Shown: positions 27,393 through 53,252 of the stretch, piece after piece
How the letters are laid out: the number at the start of each line of letters is the position of its first letter
Position numbering within the stretch: the first letter of the stretch is position 1
NCBI GenBank assembly: GCA_947475295.1
Contig: CANJLF010000011.1
Location: forward strand, 1 to 64,000
DNA length: 64,000 bases
Direction: 5' to 3'
Source: Fidelibacterota bacterium
GTDB lineage: Bacteria > Pseudomonadota > Alphaproteobacteria > Rhodospirillales > Rhodospirillaceae
Program-made: the position numbers and the translations under genes
Notes under the pieces: model-generated
Told to the model about the DNA's origin: nothing
The model's input: the letters and a program-made list of their open reading frames with translations, nothing else
The model's database searches: none

Positions 27393-28550
27393 TTAGGCCG
27401 ACTTGGTTTTGCGCTGCGCTCGCGGCGCTGTTTTTCTTTGCGCGCGCGGCGCGGCGATGCGCCCGCCGCAGGTGGGCTTTTTAACGCCGGTTGTGCCTGG
27501 AAAACTTAGCGGCAGTCCGCGCAGGCACCGCACGGCGAAATAAGCGAAGGCTTGCGCTTCAAGCGCATCGCCGTTCCAGCCGATCTCATCCACGGACGCC
27601 ACGGGAAGGCCGGTATATTCCGTCAACAACGCCATGAGGCGCGGGTTGTGACGGCCGCCGCCGGTCACAAATAATTTCTGCGGATGCCCAGGACAATCCG
27701 CCAAGGCCCGCGCCACCGAAGCCGCTGTGAAGGCGGTCAATGTGGCGGCGCCATCTTCGGTTCCCAGATCCTTGACGTAATCGGCGCTAAACGCGAAACG
27801 GTCGAGGGACTTCGGCGGGCGCATGCCGAAGAAGGGGTGATCCAGCAGCCGCGCGACGATATCGCTGTGCACGTGGCCCTTGGCCGCCACCGCGCCGCCA
27901 TCATCCATGGCGATACCAAGACGCTTACTCACCCAATCGTCGATCAATCCATTACCCGGTCCGGTATCAAAGCCGCTCAGGTCATCAATCCGTGCGCCGA
28001 CACACGTGAGGTTTGCCACGCCACCGACGTTTAAAATAGCGGCCGGCAGCGCATGCCGCGCAGCGAGAGCGGCATGATAGATCGGCAGCAGCGGCGCTCC
28101 TTGTCCACCGGCCGCCATGTCGGCGCTGCGGAAATCGAAGGCCACATCAATGCCAAGCGCGTCAGCCAAGCGCTGGCCGTCGCCCATCTGCCAGGTGGCG
28201 CCGTCTGCCGGACGATGCCAAATGGTCTGGCCGTGAAAGCCGACCAGATCCACGGCCGCCGGTGTCACGCCCATGGTTTCAAGTAAATGCTCCACGGCGG
28301 ATGCATGGAGATCGGTCAACTCGGCTTCTAAGGACTCTTCGACGGGAGAAGCGCCCCGGTCCGGCGCGGCGGTAATGAAAGCCCCCAACCGGGCGCGGAA
28401 GACCGGCGCGTAAGGTACGGTTAGCGCAGGGCCTTCCTGGACAAAGCTTTCGCCGTCGGTCTCCAGATAGGCGGCATCGATGCCGTCCATGGAGGTACCA
28501 CTCATGAGGCCCACGACGCGCAATGGCTTGAAAGATGTGGAAGCGACCAT
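27393..28550 (-). CDS. anmK: Anhydro-N-acetylmuramic acid kinase
   Basis: Phosphorylates and opens 1,6-anhydro-MurNAc recovered from peptidoglycan turnover. The family N-terminus VGLMSGTSMDGIDAAYLE (ATP-binding), the GFHGQTIWHRP motif with the catalytic Asp region, and FVTGGGRHNPRLM near the C-terminus are all present. 385 residues, with a basic C-terminal tail (RAQRKTAPRAQRKTKSA) that contains a duplicated APRAQRKT. It opens divergently from tyrS across a 294-base region filled with long hairpins. Confidence 0.94.
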   Translation of the reverse strand: MVASTSFKPLRVVGLMSGTSMDGIDAAYLETDGESFVQEGPALTVPYAPVFRARLGAFITAAPDRGASPVEESLEAELTDLHASAVEHLLETMGVTPAAVDLVGFHGQTIWHRPADGATWQMGDGQRLADALGIDVAFDFRSADMAAGGQGAPLLPIYHAALAARHALPAAILNVGGVANLTCVGARIDDLSGFDTGPGNGLIDDWVSKRLGIAMDDGGAVAAKGHVHSDIVARLLDHPFFGMRPPKSLDRFAFSADYVKDLGTEDGAATLTAFTAASVARALADCPGHPQKLFVTGGGRHNPRLMALLTEYTGLPVASVDEIGWNGDALEAQAFAYFAVRCLRGLPLSFPGTTGVKKPTCGGRIAAPRAQRKTAPRAQRKTKSA

Positions 28551-28636
28551 GGGTACATTGTCCGATTGAGGCGGGTGTGGTACTCACCCGCGCCAGCTGC
28601 GGTGGATATATCTACTATATCATGACGCCGTGCTGG

Positions 28637-28716
28637 CCCTAGTACCCGGTTTCCGAAATTCGTGATTTGTGGCAGCGTCCCGCGTAACGAATTTCGGAAA
28701 CCAAAGGGTACTAGGG
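28637..28716. repeat. Long hairpin element 1 upstream of tyrS
   Basis: An outer stem of 11 bp (CCCTAGTACCC 28637-28647 with GGGTACTAGGG 28706-28716) and a perfect 15-bp inner stem (28648-28662 with 28688-28702) are separated on the right arm by a 3-base AAA bulge. The loop has 25 bases (28663-28687). Read on the minus strand, it has the layout of element 2: CTAGTACC stem, T-rich left bulge (TTT), long inner stem, loop entering with TTACGCG. The inner-stem sequence is not shared with element 2. No T-run follows, so a terminator is unlikely. Confidence 0.85.
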
Positions 28717-28727
28717 ATATTTTGATC

Positions 28728-28805
28728 TAGTACCGCTCTTCGATCAGAAGTTCCTGACGCGAATGCACGGTTACCCAGTGCAGGAACTTCTGATCGGCGG
28801 TACTA
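28728..28805. repeat. Long hairpin element 2 upstream of tyrS
   Basis: A 9-bp outer stem (TAGTACCGC 28728-28736 with GCGGTACTA 28797-28805), a 4-base left bulge TCTT (28737-28740), a perfect 16-bp inner stem (28741-28756 with 28781-28796), and a 24-base loop starting ACGCG. It lies 39 bases before the tyrS start and 11 bases after element 1, which is in the opposite orientation. Both have the same architecture but unrelated inner stems. Confidence 0.85.
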
Positions 28806-28844
28806 ACCTGCAAACCTCTTTTGAAGTCCCAAACGAGCGCTGCC

Positions 28845-30095
28845 ATGACCCAATACCGGTCCGACCTGATCCAGACCCTGACGGCGCGCGGATTCTTGCA
28901 TCAGTGCACCAACCTGGAAGCCTTGGACGCAAAGGCCACGTCCGGCGTGGTTACGGCTTATGTAGGTTACGACGCCACGGCCGACAGTCTGCACATCGGC
29001 AATCTGGTCTCGATCATGATGCTGCGTTGGCTGCAGAAGACAGGACATCGGCCGATCACCCTCATGGGCGGCGGCACCACCAAGATCGGCGATCCTTCCG
29101 GGCGGGATGAAACCCGCGTGTTGCAGGACGACGCCACTATCAATGCGAGAATCGCTTCCCTGCAGACGGCCTTTGGTCGCTACCTGGCTTACGGCACAGG
29201 CAAGACCGATGCGCTCATGGTCAATAACGCCGACTGGCTGGACGGCCTGCAGTACATTCCATTCCTGCGCGACATCGGCCGGCACTTCACCATCAACCGC
29301 ATGCTGACCATGGACAGCGTCAAGCTACGGCTCGAACGCGAGCAGCCGCTGACCTTCCTTGAGTTCAACTACATGATCCTGCAGGGCTACGACTTCGTCG
29401 AACTCTACAGGCGCTTCGGCTGCACCTTGCAGCTGGGCGGCTCCGACCAATGGGGCAATATCATTCAGGGTGTCGACCTCGGCCGGCGCGTCGTGGATGC
29501 GGAGTTGTTCGGCTTTACCTGCCCGCTGATTACGACGTCTTCCGGCGCAAAGATGGGTAAGACCGCTGCTGGGGCCGTGTGGTTGAAAGCGGAACGCTTC
29601 AGTCCCTACGACTACTATCAGTTCTGGCGCAACACCGAGGACGGCGACGTCGGCCGCTTCCTGAAGCTGTTCACGGATTTGCCGTTGGAGGAAATCGCGC
29701 GGCTGGAAAAACTTGAAGGTGCGGAGATCAACGACGCCAAGAAGGTGCTGGCTCTGGAAGCCACCACCCTGCTGCACGGCGCTGAAGCCGCCAAAGATGC
29801 CGCCGAGACCGCGCGCAAAACCTTCGAGCAAGGCGGCATCGGCGACGACTTGCCGACCGTTGAAATCAGCGCGACGGAGTTGAAAACCGGCATCCCGGCC
29901 TGGAGCCTATTCCAACGCGCTGGGCTGGCCGAAAGCAACGGCGAAGCACGTCGCCTGATCCGCGGCGGCGGGGCTAAGGTCAATGATCAGAAGTGCGACG
30001 ATGAGAATGTGATGGTGACGGCCGACGCCGTGGTCGACGGCGTCATCAAACTCAGCGCCGGCAAAAAACGTCATGCCATCGTCAAGCTCACTTAA
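28845..30095 (+). CDS. tyrS: Tyrosyl-tRNA synthetase
   Basis: Class Ic synthetase charging tRNA-Tyr. HIGH-type motif [14 protein letters not shown], tyrosine-binding residues ([35 protein letters not shown]), KMSKS-type motif [13 protein letters not shown], and a C-terminal S4-like RNA-binding domain ([20 protein letters not shown]). I start at ATG 28845 ([17 protein letters not shown]), the usual beginning; a TTG at 28821 would add eight residues. Its 3' end overlaps the oppositely oriented YhdP-like gene by four bases. The two long hairpins directly upstream could affect its expression. Confidence 0.96.
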
Positions 30096-52733: not shown

Positions 52734-52760
52734 ACCGCGGAATCTAATTCGAACTTAAGT

Positions 52761-52778
52761 CGTACCAGGTACGAATTA
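52761..52778. repeat. GTACCWGGTAC dyad, copy 1
   Basis: CGTACC-A-GGTACG followed by AATTA. It lies 28 bases after the lipoprotein gene and about 45 bases before copy 2. Confidence 0.7.
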
Positions 52779-52805
52779 CGCCCTCTGTTCGAGCAAGGGA
52801 GCGAT

Positions 52806-52827
52806 TAATTGTACCTGGTACGAATTA
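52806..52827. repeat. GTACCWGGTAC dyad, copy 2 (contains the HNH start codon)
   Basis: TAATT, GTACC, central T, GGTAC, GAATTA. The TTG at 52809-52811 that opens the HNH reading frame is inside this copy, so the first residues (YLVRIT) are encoded by the repeat. Confidence 0.75.
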
Positions 52828-53252
52828 CCTCTCCCGCATTCTGCCTGCTCGCGCTCGCGCTTCTCTCCTGCGCGAGCCCAGCGGCTGCGGCGCGTATCCA
52901 CCGCGACCGGCATGTGCTTGTCGTCTTCCAGCGCGGCCATCCCTGCCCATCGATCGGCAAGACAGGCGACGGCACCCGCGGCGCGTGCCCGGGCTGGCAG
53001 AAAGATCATTTGATGGCGCTTGAGTGCGGCGGCGCCGACGCGGTGTGGAATCTGCACTGGCTGAGCGTTGCAGATCATGCCGCCAAAACCAGGCTCGACA
53101 ACAAGGGCTGTCGGATGATCAAGGGCGCGTTGCCCGGCGCCAGCGCGTCCCTAACTAAATTCGTACCAGGTACGAATTATTCTCCAAGCTTATCCAACTC
53201 ACTATCCCCCGGCTCTTGGGGCCCGGCGCGCATTTCCTCGGGCGGGTCGTAG
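52809..53252 (+). CDS. Small exported HNH nuclease-like protein
   Basis: 147 residues from TTG 52809. A signal-like segment (FCLLALALLSCASPAAAA) is followed by a compact HNH-type domain: HPCPSIGKTGDGTRGACPGWQKDHLMALECGGADAVWNLHWLSVADHAAKTRLDNKGC. The DH of QKDHLMAL and the Asn of AVWNLHW fit the HNH core, as in small bacterial proteins with CPxTGKTRGACPGYVVDH. It is probably secreted or periplasmic. The reading frame continues after copy 3 of the dyad (53158-53178), so the original C-terminus is uncertain and the last 30 residues may be read-through. Both ends coincide with dyads. Confidence 0.7.
   Translation: MYLVRITSPAFCLLALALLSCASPAAAARIHRDRHVLVVFQRGHPCPSIGKTGDGTRGACPGWQKDHLMALECGGADAVWNLHWLSVADHAAKTRLDNKGCRMIKGALPGASASLTKFVPGTNYSPSLSNSLSPGSWGPARISSGGS
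53158..53178. repeat. GTACCWGGTAC dyad, copy 3
   Basis: AATTCGTACC, central A, GGTACGAATT: a perfect 21-base dyad with a single central base. It lies inside the HNH reading frame, and its right end supplies the stop codon of the opposite-strand gene (TAA at 53177-53179). Confidence 0.8.

Follow-up and report, generated by a model that had tools for sequence, protein, structure and literature searches.

The DNA before tyrS carries a real mobile repeat, and the family to which it belongs is unusually strict in structure and spread through the class Alphaproteobacteria. In each unit two long hairpins that differ but co-evolve lie head-to-head; both have a T-rich bulge on the 5' side and CTAG at either foot. 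The pair is dispersed, relatives have empty sites, recent copies are bounded by CTAG, one copy is nested in another, pairing changes are two-sided and the two hairpins of a unit share their subtype. We interpret this as probably a non-autonomous BIME/REPIN-like mobile element of ~165-170 bp (REPIN is the name for paired REP elements), a hetero-dimer of long hairpins that would be moved as folded single-stranded DNA by an enzyme acting in trans.

The hairpin pair before tyrS and its family

The element was located in a window of 64,000 nucleotides, the whole stretch of DNA analyzed. Both hairpins (Table 1) have stems of ~25 bp whose outer part contains (C)TAGTACC, and a T-rich bulge confined to the 5' side. 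Their positions, inverted orientation and 11-base gap, as given in a preliminary description of the window, agree with the sequence. The perfect stems reported there also stand, with inner stems of 16 bp each instead of 15 and 16 bp and with loops of 23 and 24 nt. The statement that the inner stems have no sequence in common was wrong in detail, as GAAATTC or GAAGTTC (a GAARTTC core) occupies the same alignment columns of both. Folded as single-stranded DNA, the hairpins have z-scores of -7.9 and -8.8, and none of 200 shuffles was as stable. The window contains 27 inverted repeats, and among the 25 listed only these two hairpins have 100% complementarity over 16 nt. A scan of 28500-28900 returned no site resembling a terminator or a promoter, in line with the earlier remark that the T-run of a terminator is absent.

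Table 1 Coordinates of the composite element and its neighbors in the window
Feature	Position	Strand	Basis or remark
Composite element, two head-to-head hairpins, the mobile unit	28637..28805	none	One of 20 copies found in this genome
Hairpin A (subtype III), 5' end at 28716	28637..28716	minus	Sequence and folding
Hairpin A outer 5' arm CCCTAGTACCC, 11 bp, pairs with 28637-28647	28706..28716	minus	
CTAG foot of hairpin A, turned to the spacer	within outer 5' arm 28706..28716	minus	
Hairpin A 5' bulge TTT	28703..28705	minus	
Hairpin A inner 5' arm GGTTTCCGAAATTCGT	28687..28702	minus	
Hairpin A loop, 23 nt, variable part	28664..28686	minus	
Hairpin A inner 3' arm	28648..28663	minus	
Hairpin A outer 3' arm, left boundary of the composite	28637..28647	minus	
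AT-rich spacer, 11 nt; final base is the C of hairpin B's CTAG	28717..28727		
Hairpin B (subtype III)	28728..28805	plus	Sequence and folding
Hairpin B outer 5' arm TAGTACCGC, 9 bp, pairs with 28797-28805	28728..28736	plus	
Hairpin B 5' bulge TCTT	28737..28740	plus	
Hairpin B inner 5' arm CGATCAGAAGTTCCTG	28741..28756	plus	
Hairpin B loop, 24 nt	28757..28780	plus	
Hairpin B inner 3' arm	28781..28796	plus	
Hairpin B outer 3' arm, right boundary of the composite	28797..28805	plus	
anmK-like gene, divergent neighbor, context only	27393..28550	minus	Pfam AnmK, E 1.8e-84
tyrS, divergent neighbor, context only	28845..30095	plus	Pfam tRNA-synt_1b and SYY C-terminal domain; element upstream not ancestral

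Direct searches of the same genome revealed two further composites with the same hairpin order. A covariation model built from 17 hairpins gave 72 matches at E up to 1. They correspond to 40 hairpins (many matched on both strands), which form 20 adjacent pairs with no single hairpin, so the genome holds at least 20 copies of the element. By best-scoring strand 19 of the 20 pairs are head-to-head, and in the remaining pair (C7) one hairpin scores almost equally on either strand.

We profiled the distribution of the family with the same model. Matches were found in 17 of 61 genomes (the window's own genome, which is counted, and 60 relatives), the richest being G015 (70 matches), the own genome (64), G006 (47), G002 (28) and G017 (21); among the 18 further genus genomes, 6 had none. 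Scans of the class and the phylum gave 18 positives of 385 genomes and 15 of 398, the own genome counted in both, and every positive in the phylum scan belongs to the same class, as does an unspecified share of the 398 genomes scanned. As 79 candidates were scored per genome in the 61-genome scan and 12 in the other two, these counts are lower bounds. In named records the subtype I pattern (see below) matched at least 117 stretches, and the matches listed include Nitrobacter, Afipia, Bradyrhizobium, Rhodoplanes, Pseudolabrys, Mesorhizobium, Phyllobacterium, Sphingomonas and Novosphingobium, among others. On plasmids, subtype I matched four Rhizobiales records and the G428 type matched one record partially; the elements of the window, G394 and G182 had no match in plasmid records, and viral contigs had no exact match to subtype I. 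As a specificity check, the model search of 250 kb of S. meliloti pSymB returned nothing below E = 1. Two records titled Candidatus Marinimicrobia (L330, L349) carry the element, and these titles look mislabelled (alphaproteobacterial). Copies lie at or beside gene edges and mostly between genes. By simple gene calls, 73 composites are in tandem (38), divergent (25) or convergent (8) contexts or at contig edges (2).

Anatomy was compared in these 73 composites, taken from the first loci, and in 441 hairpins from 291 loci. Hairpins entered the set of 441 if the 5' bulge measured 2-6 nt and the 3' bulge no more than 1, if the outer arm was 7 nt or longer and contained TAG or GTG, and if a core-like motif was present and neither stem had more than one mismatch; others were dropped. 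Subtype I is over-represented in the 291 loci because 117 of them came from the subtype I pattern; the model searched the first 80 of the at least 117 subtype I stretches. Neighboring hairpins 3-25 nt apart are head-to-head in 174 of 178 cases, with the T-bulged arms facing the spacer. The spacer measures 6-16 nt in the 73 composites, with a mean AT content of 81% (lowest 62%), and T accounts for 1128 of the 1484 bulge bases in the 441 hairpins. Loops are mostly 19-28 nt long and stems ~25 bp. CTAG stands at both ends in nearly all recent copies, and most of the 73 composites have feet that resemble CTAG. At its two ends the composite carries imperfect inverted repeats, made up by the outer arms of the two hairpins.

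Several subtypes were distinguished, among them subtype I (CTAGTGGTCC/GATTCTAACATTCGCA with CTAGTGGAGC/GGATTTGACATTCGC), subtype II (CTAGTGTCGC/GATTCCAAAGTTCGCA with CTAGTGTGGC/GGATTTGAAGTTCC) and subtype III, the element of the window. The core subtype is the same in both hairpins of all 157 callable composites, which fall into two classes (17 of 174 were not callable), and the base after GTG agrees between partners in 151 of 172 callable composites. The hairpins of one unit thus evolve together. A strict partner pattern identified a partner for 62 of 80 subtype I hairpins; inspection by eye gave a variant partner for most of the remaining 18, and a few (L278, L289, L309, L311 and L334) lack a partner in the usual form. 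Among the subtype I copies compared, inner stems are 90-95% identical and loops 49-66%. Other lineages (G394, G115) retain the stems but have loops of 3-6 nt, and the short-loop form of G394 is 133 bp long.

Some unusual arrangements were also observed. Two other alphaproteobacterial genomes contain short-loop versions of about 130 bp with hairpins of 57-66 nt (L254 5591-5723, L255, L256). One solo hairpin in G199 (L432 780-866) is a chimera of a B-type and an A-type arm and looks like a recombination of two units in the shared core. In G373, two composites of different subtype directly adjoin (L253 5154-5483).

Pairing and mobility

In the 17 hairpins of the model, 97.3% of cells are paired, two-sided changes outnumber one-sided changes 81 to 3, and 20 of 24 pairs have changes on both sides. 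Four of five covariation measures were reached by none of 500 shuffles and the fifth by 12. The absence of further copies and of compensatory changes had been named in the preliminary description as what would refute its reading, and this test did not refute it; the two-sided changes across copies support its view that structure is kept while sequence changes. In 174 composites, arms have 0.15 and 0.11 mismatches in 11 bp with their own partner and 2.53 (best register) with the arm of the other hairpin. These figures come from hairpins collected by the model or the hairpin finder and lean to structure, because the collection asked for pairing.

This lean is avoided in 115 subtype I hairpins that were identified solely from their 5' arm. 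In 95 of them the 3' arm complements it exactly, and in 109 with at most 1 mismatch of 13; the 3' arm resembles its own complement more than a B-type arm in 112, equally in 3 and less in none. At the first variable stem position the partner letter follows in 113 of 115 (T-A 31, C-G 82; 2 exceptions), and at the second in 111 of 115 (A-T 93, G-C 18; 4 exceptions). The partner hairpin B was recognized in 103 of 111 cases, and own arms fit better in all 103. This comparison, made without asking for pairing, is the strongest sign that the pairing itself is under constraint, beyond the end sequence alone. Gene conversion between copies could add to the conservation.

Across the 441 hairpins, whose collection likewise favored paired structures, 97.7% of cells are Watson-Crick pairs and 0.7% are G.T pairs. 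Mismatches read on the T-bulge strand include 83 G.T, 48 A.C (p = 0.003) and 131 others, in sequences that are related. A double-stranded palindrome predicts equality of G.T and A.C, and an RNA constraint predicts a large G.U excess. The small G.T excess, a weak test in related sequences, would fit DNA that is single-stranded at times on the T-bulge strand.

Site comparisons revealed empty counterparts of occupied sites. The 300-420 nt before tyrS lack the element in all 15 genus relatives in which this region is readable, and the model found no match at the tyrS loci of the 18 other genus genomes (three of these loci being cut short). Alignment of the region with G017, G009 and G015 also shows an empty site. 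Seven further pairs of occupied and empty sites were found, with G010 always on the empty side, and the site of one recent copy in G182 is empty in G286. G428 and G182 hold copies with nearly identical loops at unrelated sites, and in these the similarity begins and ends at CTAG, with a few end variants. A nested arrangement occurs in a Bradyrhizobium MAG (L351 1300-1660), where the inner CTAG of a subtype II composite is the exact site of a subtype I composite flanked by CTAG on either side; other chains of elements share one CTAG. Solo A or B hairpins in G182 are limited by their own feet. The targets read from empty sites are TTAG (CTAG-like) at the L152 site and ATCG at the G182/G286 site, in sequences too diverged for exact reading. 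With 20 copies in the genome, recurrence in the class, empty sites and a nested insertion, the earlier proposal of a family of structured elements, a mobile palindrome of REP or MITE type, is supported.

Two other kinds of target were considered and rejected. TAG stop codons were one candidate: 19 of 59 open frames that enter a copy end at its terminal TAG, close to the one third expected from three frames, so a stop-codon target was rejected. Some copies appear to supply a gene's stop codon. The second candidate was insertion into terminator hairpins, and four loci (L133, L140, L144, L149) look like this. Flank stems are not clearly commoner than in permuted flanks, as scores of 8, 9, 10 and 11 or more occur in 3, 2, 2 and 1 of 73 composites and were reached in 19, 19, 4 and 27 of 300 permutations. 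In a fold-energy test of the flanks the mean energy lay below all 200 permutations, whereas 33 of 200 equalled the observed cross-junction pairs, and strong stems did not exceed the permuted number (19 versus 18.7). Orthology of the helicase-side copies of G000 and G015 was rejected because their left flanks do not align.

The proposed moving enzyme and competing explanations

We propose that a putative enzyme acting in trans would recognize each hairpin, as folded single-stranded or cruciform DNA, through the bulge and the stem core. It would cut at the CTAG feet and join the unit to another CTAG-like site. The spread would be selfish, and tolerance just outside genes would decide where copies survive.

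The main rival, which we consider rather unlikely, is a MITE, that is, double-stranded DNA moved by a DDE transposase targeting CTAG or TA; such transposases are IS630/Tc1- or IS5-like. The outer arms would then be terminal inverted repeats, CTAG or TA the target duplication, and the hairpins by-products of repeated internal ends. The imperfect inverted repeats at the outer ends of the composite suit this reading, as do the CTAG flanks on both sides of the nested insertion and the patchy, multi-copy, mostly intergenic distribution. A DDE transposase duplicating a 4-bp or TA target would produce the nested CTAG just as well, and CTAG on both sides is also expected when a CTAG-ended unit is joined at CTAG. 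Apart from the nested insertion and the chains, inspection of the 73 composites by eye gave no sign of duplication. However, a MITE leaves unexplained why, in two hairpins that differ, each inner arm follows the outer arm of its own hairpin (112 of 115 for A, 103 of 103 for B), why the T-rich bulge is kept and why solo hairpins end at inner feet. Searches of the own genome also argue against it: BLAST with each hairpin returned family copies and 14-16-nt matches only, with no gene-bearing parent, and neither BLAST nor the model found a parent insertion sequence with the same ends. We therefore favor the hairpin enzyme acting in trans, since it alone accounts for the pairing of own arms, the persistence of the bulge and the solo units.

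An ordinary RAYT/REPIN system, in which the genome's Y1 transposase moves the hairpins like REP or BIME units, is largely refuted as a general mechanism and appears quite improbable. It would account for the inverted hairpin pair, the bulged stem and the tetranucleotide feet, which are as in BIMEs, and among the 61 genomes the Y1_Tnp domain (RAYT family) was detected in 13 of the 17 positives. However, it was also detected in 20 of the 44 negatives and in all six element-free genomes of the genus, and it was not detected in 11 of 17 positive genomes of the class, including three assembled in 1-3 contigs (G069, G074, G202). None of the 20 Y1_Tnp loci of the genus has these hairpins. On the Y1-less positives, Y1-bearing negatives and hairpin-free Y1 loci, RAYT was rejected as the general agent.

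The Y1 loci have palindromes of their own. Fourteen of the 20 hold other palindromes of two kinds, either GTACCTGGTAC-like or with GGGGTCAGA, and several Y1 transposase genes of the genus and family (L041, L043, L045, L048, L070) are flanked by a palindrome holding GGGGTCAGA. In the window, the different palindrome family GTACCTGGTAC occurs at 52756-52827 and 53163-53173, in three places and on both strands at each (6 matches versus 0.17 expected by chance). The same palindrome flanks the Y1 transposase gene of the own genome at C11:71445 (L039 1855-1903), so this genome has a second, RAYT-type repeat system. Near 65 element regions, no recurring neighbor protein family was read by eye as a transposase; by eye, an ABC-type ATPase formed the commonest cluster (6 loci), followed by a sensor-like protein (5 loci).

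It is very improbable that the hairpins are a functional RNA element (a tyrS leader, a bidirectional terminator or an mRNA stabilizer) kept for the action of the transcript. Stable hairpins on both strands, the many copies close to gene ends and the mild excess of G.T over A.C would be expected of such an RNA. However, the tyrS site is empty in relatives, neither a T-run nor a promoter was found, gene context varies among the 73 copies, and the G.T share is small for a constraint on RNA only. Rfam yielded no family at the gathering score and only chance hits below the cut-off. The regulatory RNA of tyrS suggested in the preliminary description is not supported, given the empty sites and the lack of a promoter or terminator in the scan: 15 of 15 readable genus relatives have no such hairpin before tyrS and other copies lie beside other genes. 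A local accident, two hairpins formed by chance, has no point in its favor and is refuted almost beyond doubt by the folding z-scores and the 20 copies in the genome.

With hairpin processing in trans as the preferred reading, a broader view can be held tentatively. The family may represent a RAYT-independent class of mobile DNA in Alphaproteobacteria, a long bulged hairpin hetero-dimer recombined at CTAG as folded single-stranded DNA by a hairpin-processing enzyme in trans, with several subtypes whose hairpins would co-evolve with their enzyme. Recent copies define the unit to the base, the target appears to be CTAG and the architecture is nearly invariant across the class. Genomes in 1-3 contigs carry the element without a detected Y1 transposase. 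The base-exact unit, the apparent CTAG target and the carriers without Y1 allow the search for the enzyme to be put to a direct test. Copies that could otherwise be mistaken for terminators, sRNAs or gene ends can be found and masked with the covariation model.

Comparison with known repeat systems

Literature on RIME, Bru-RS, REPIN/RAYT, MITE and Nitrobacter or Bradyrhizobium repeats, covered mostly as titles and the openings of abstracts and with few subscription papers, contained no recognized description of this element. Short strings of the element were also sought in those paper texts that were available, and no title among the matches listed concerned a bacterial repeat.

Correia, RUP and Nezha are MITEs that target TA or CTAG; they are short and non-autonomous, with inverted ends and a short palindromic target. 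The window family resembles them in all these traits, terminal inverted repeats included. In contrast to them, it has two complete bulged hairpins and keeps own-arm pairing, and no parent insertion sequence was found.

RIMEs are built on a plan of two palindromes, and their size is near that of the short-loop versions of the element (about 130 bp). Like the window family, RIMEs and Bru-RS are described as intergenic structured repeats in Rhizobiales; the model gave no match below E = 1 in the 250 kb of pSymB. The available text of one paper names RIMEs as Rhizobium intergenic mosaic elements (PMC2573895), and that of another describes the Bru-RS of Brucella as intergenic and 103-105 bp long (PMC2267715).

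REP classes offer closer parallels. In the accessible part of their description, CGTC REPs occur mostly in Alphaproteobacteria, form mostly head-to-head dimers and have no known dedicated transposase; they carry a CGTC tag, stems of 8-9 bp and loops of 4-5 nt (PMC3733652). The window family shares the class, the head-to-head dimers and the lack of a known dedicated transposase, but has CTAG, stems of ~25 bp and loops of mostly 19-28 nt. GTAG REPs, in the same accessible text, have stems of 5-13 bp and loops of 2-20 nt (PMC3733652). Their GTAG is one-sided, whereas the window family has CTAG at both feet, stems of ~25 bp and loops of mostly 19-28 nt (3-6 nt in a minority lineage), and its pairing is nearly obligate. 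It also has no linked or required RAYT, which was not detected in 11 of 17 positives in the class and in 4 of 17 among the 61 genomes. By the published definitions, as far as the available text gives them, the element is neither a GTAG nor a CGTC REP, differing in tag, stem and loop sizes and transposase link (PMC3733652, PMC8266576).

The closest likeness in plan is to BIMEs, which the accessible parts of two papers describe as inverted pairs of imperfect hairpins, mostly outside genes, that include hetero-dimers and have a bulge in the stem and a tetranucleotide at the foot, occurring in clusters and as single units (PMC8266576, PMC3733652). The window family likewise consists of inverted bulged pairs that are hetero-dimers with tetranucleotide feet, in clusters and with solo units. 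The BIME/REPIN trait of two inverted hairpins joined by a linker outside genes is present in it, as seen from the 174 of 178 head-to-head neighbors and from the gene context of the copies.
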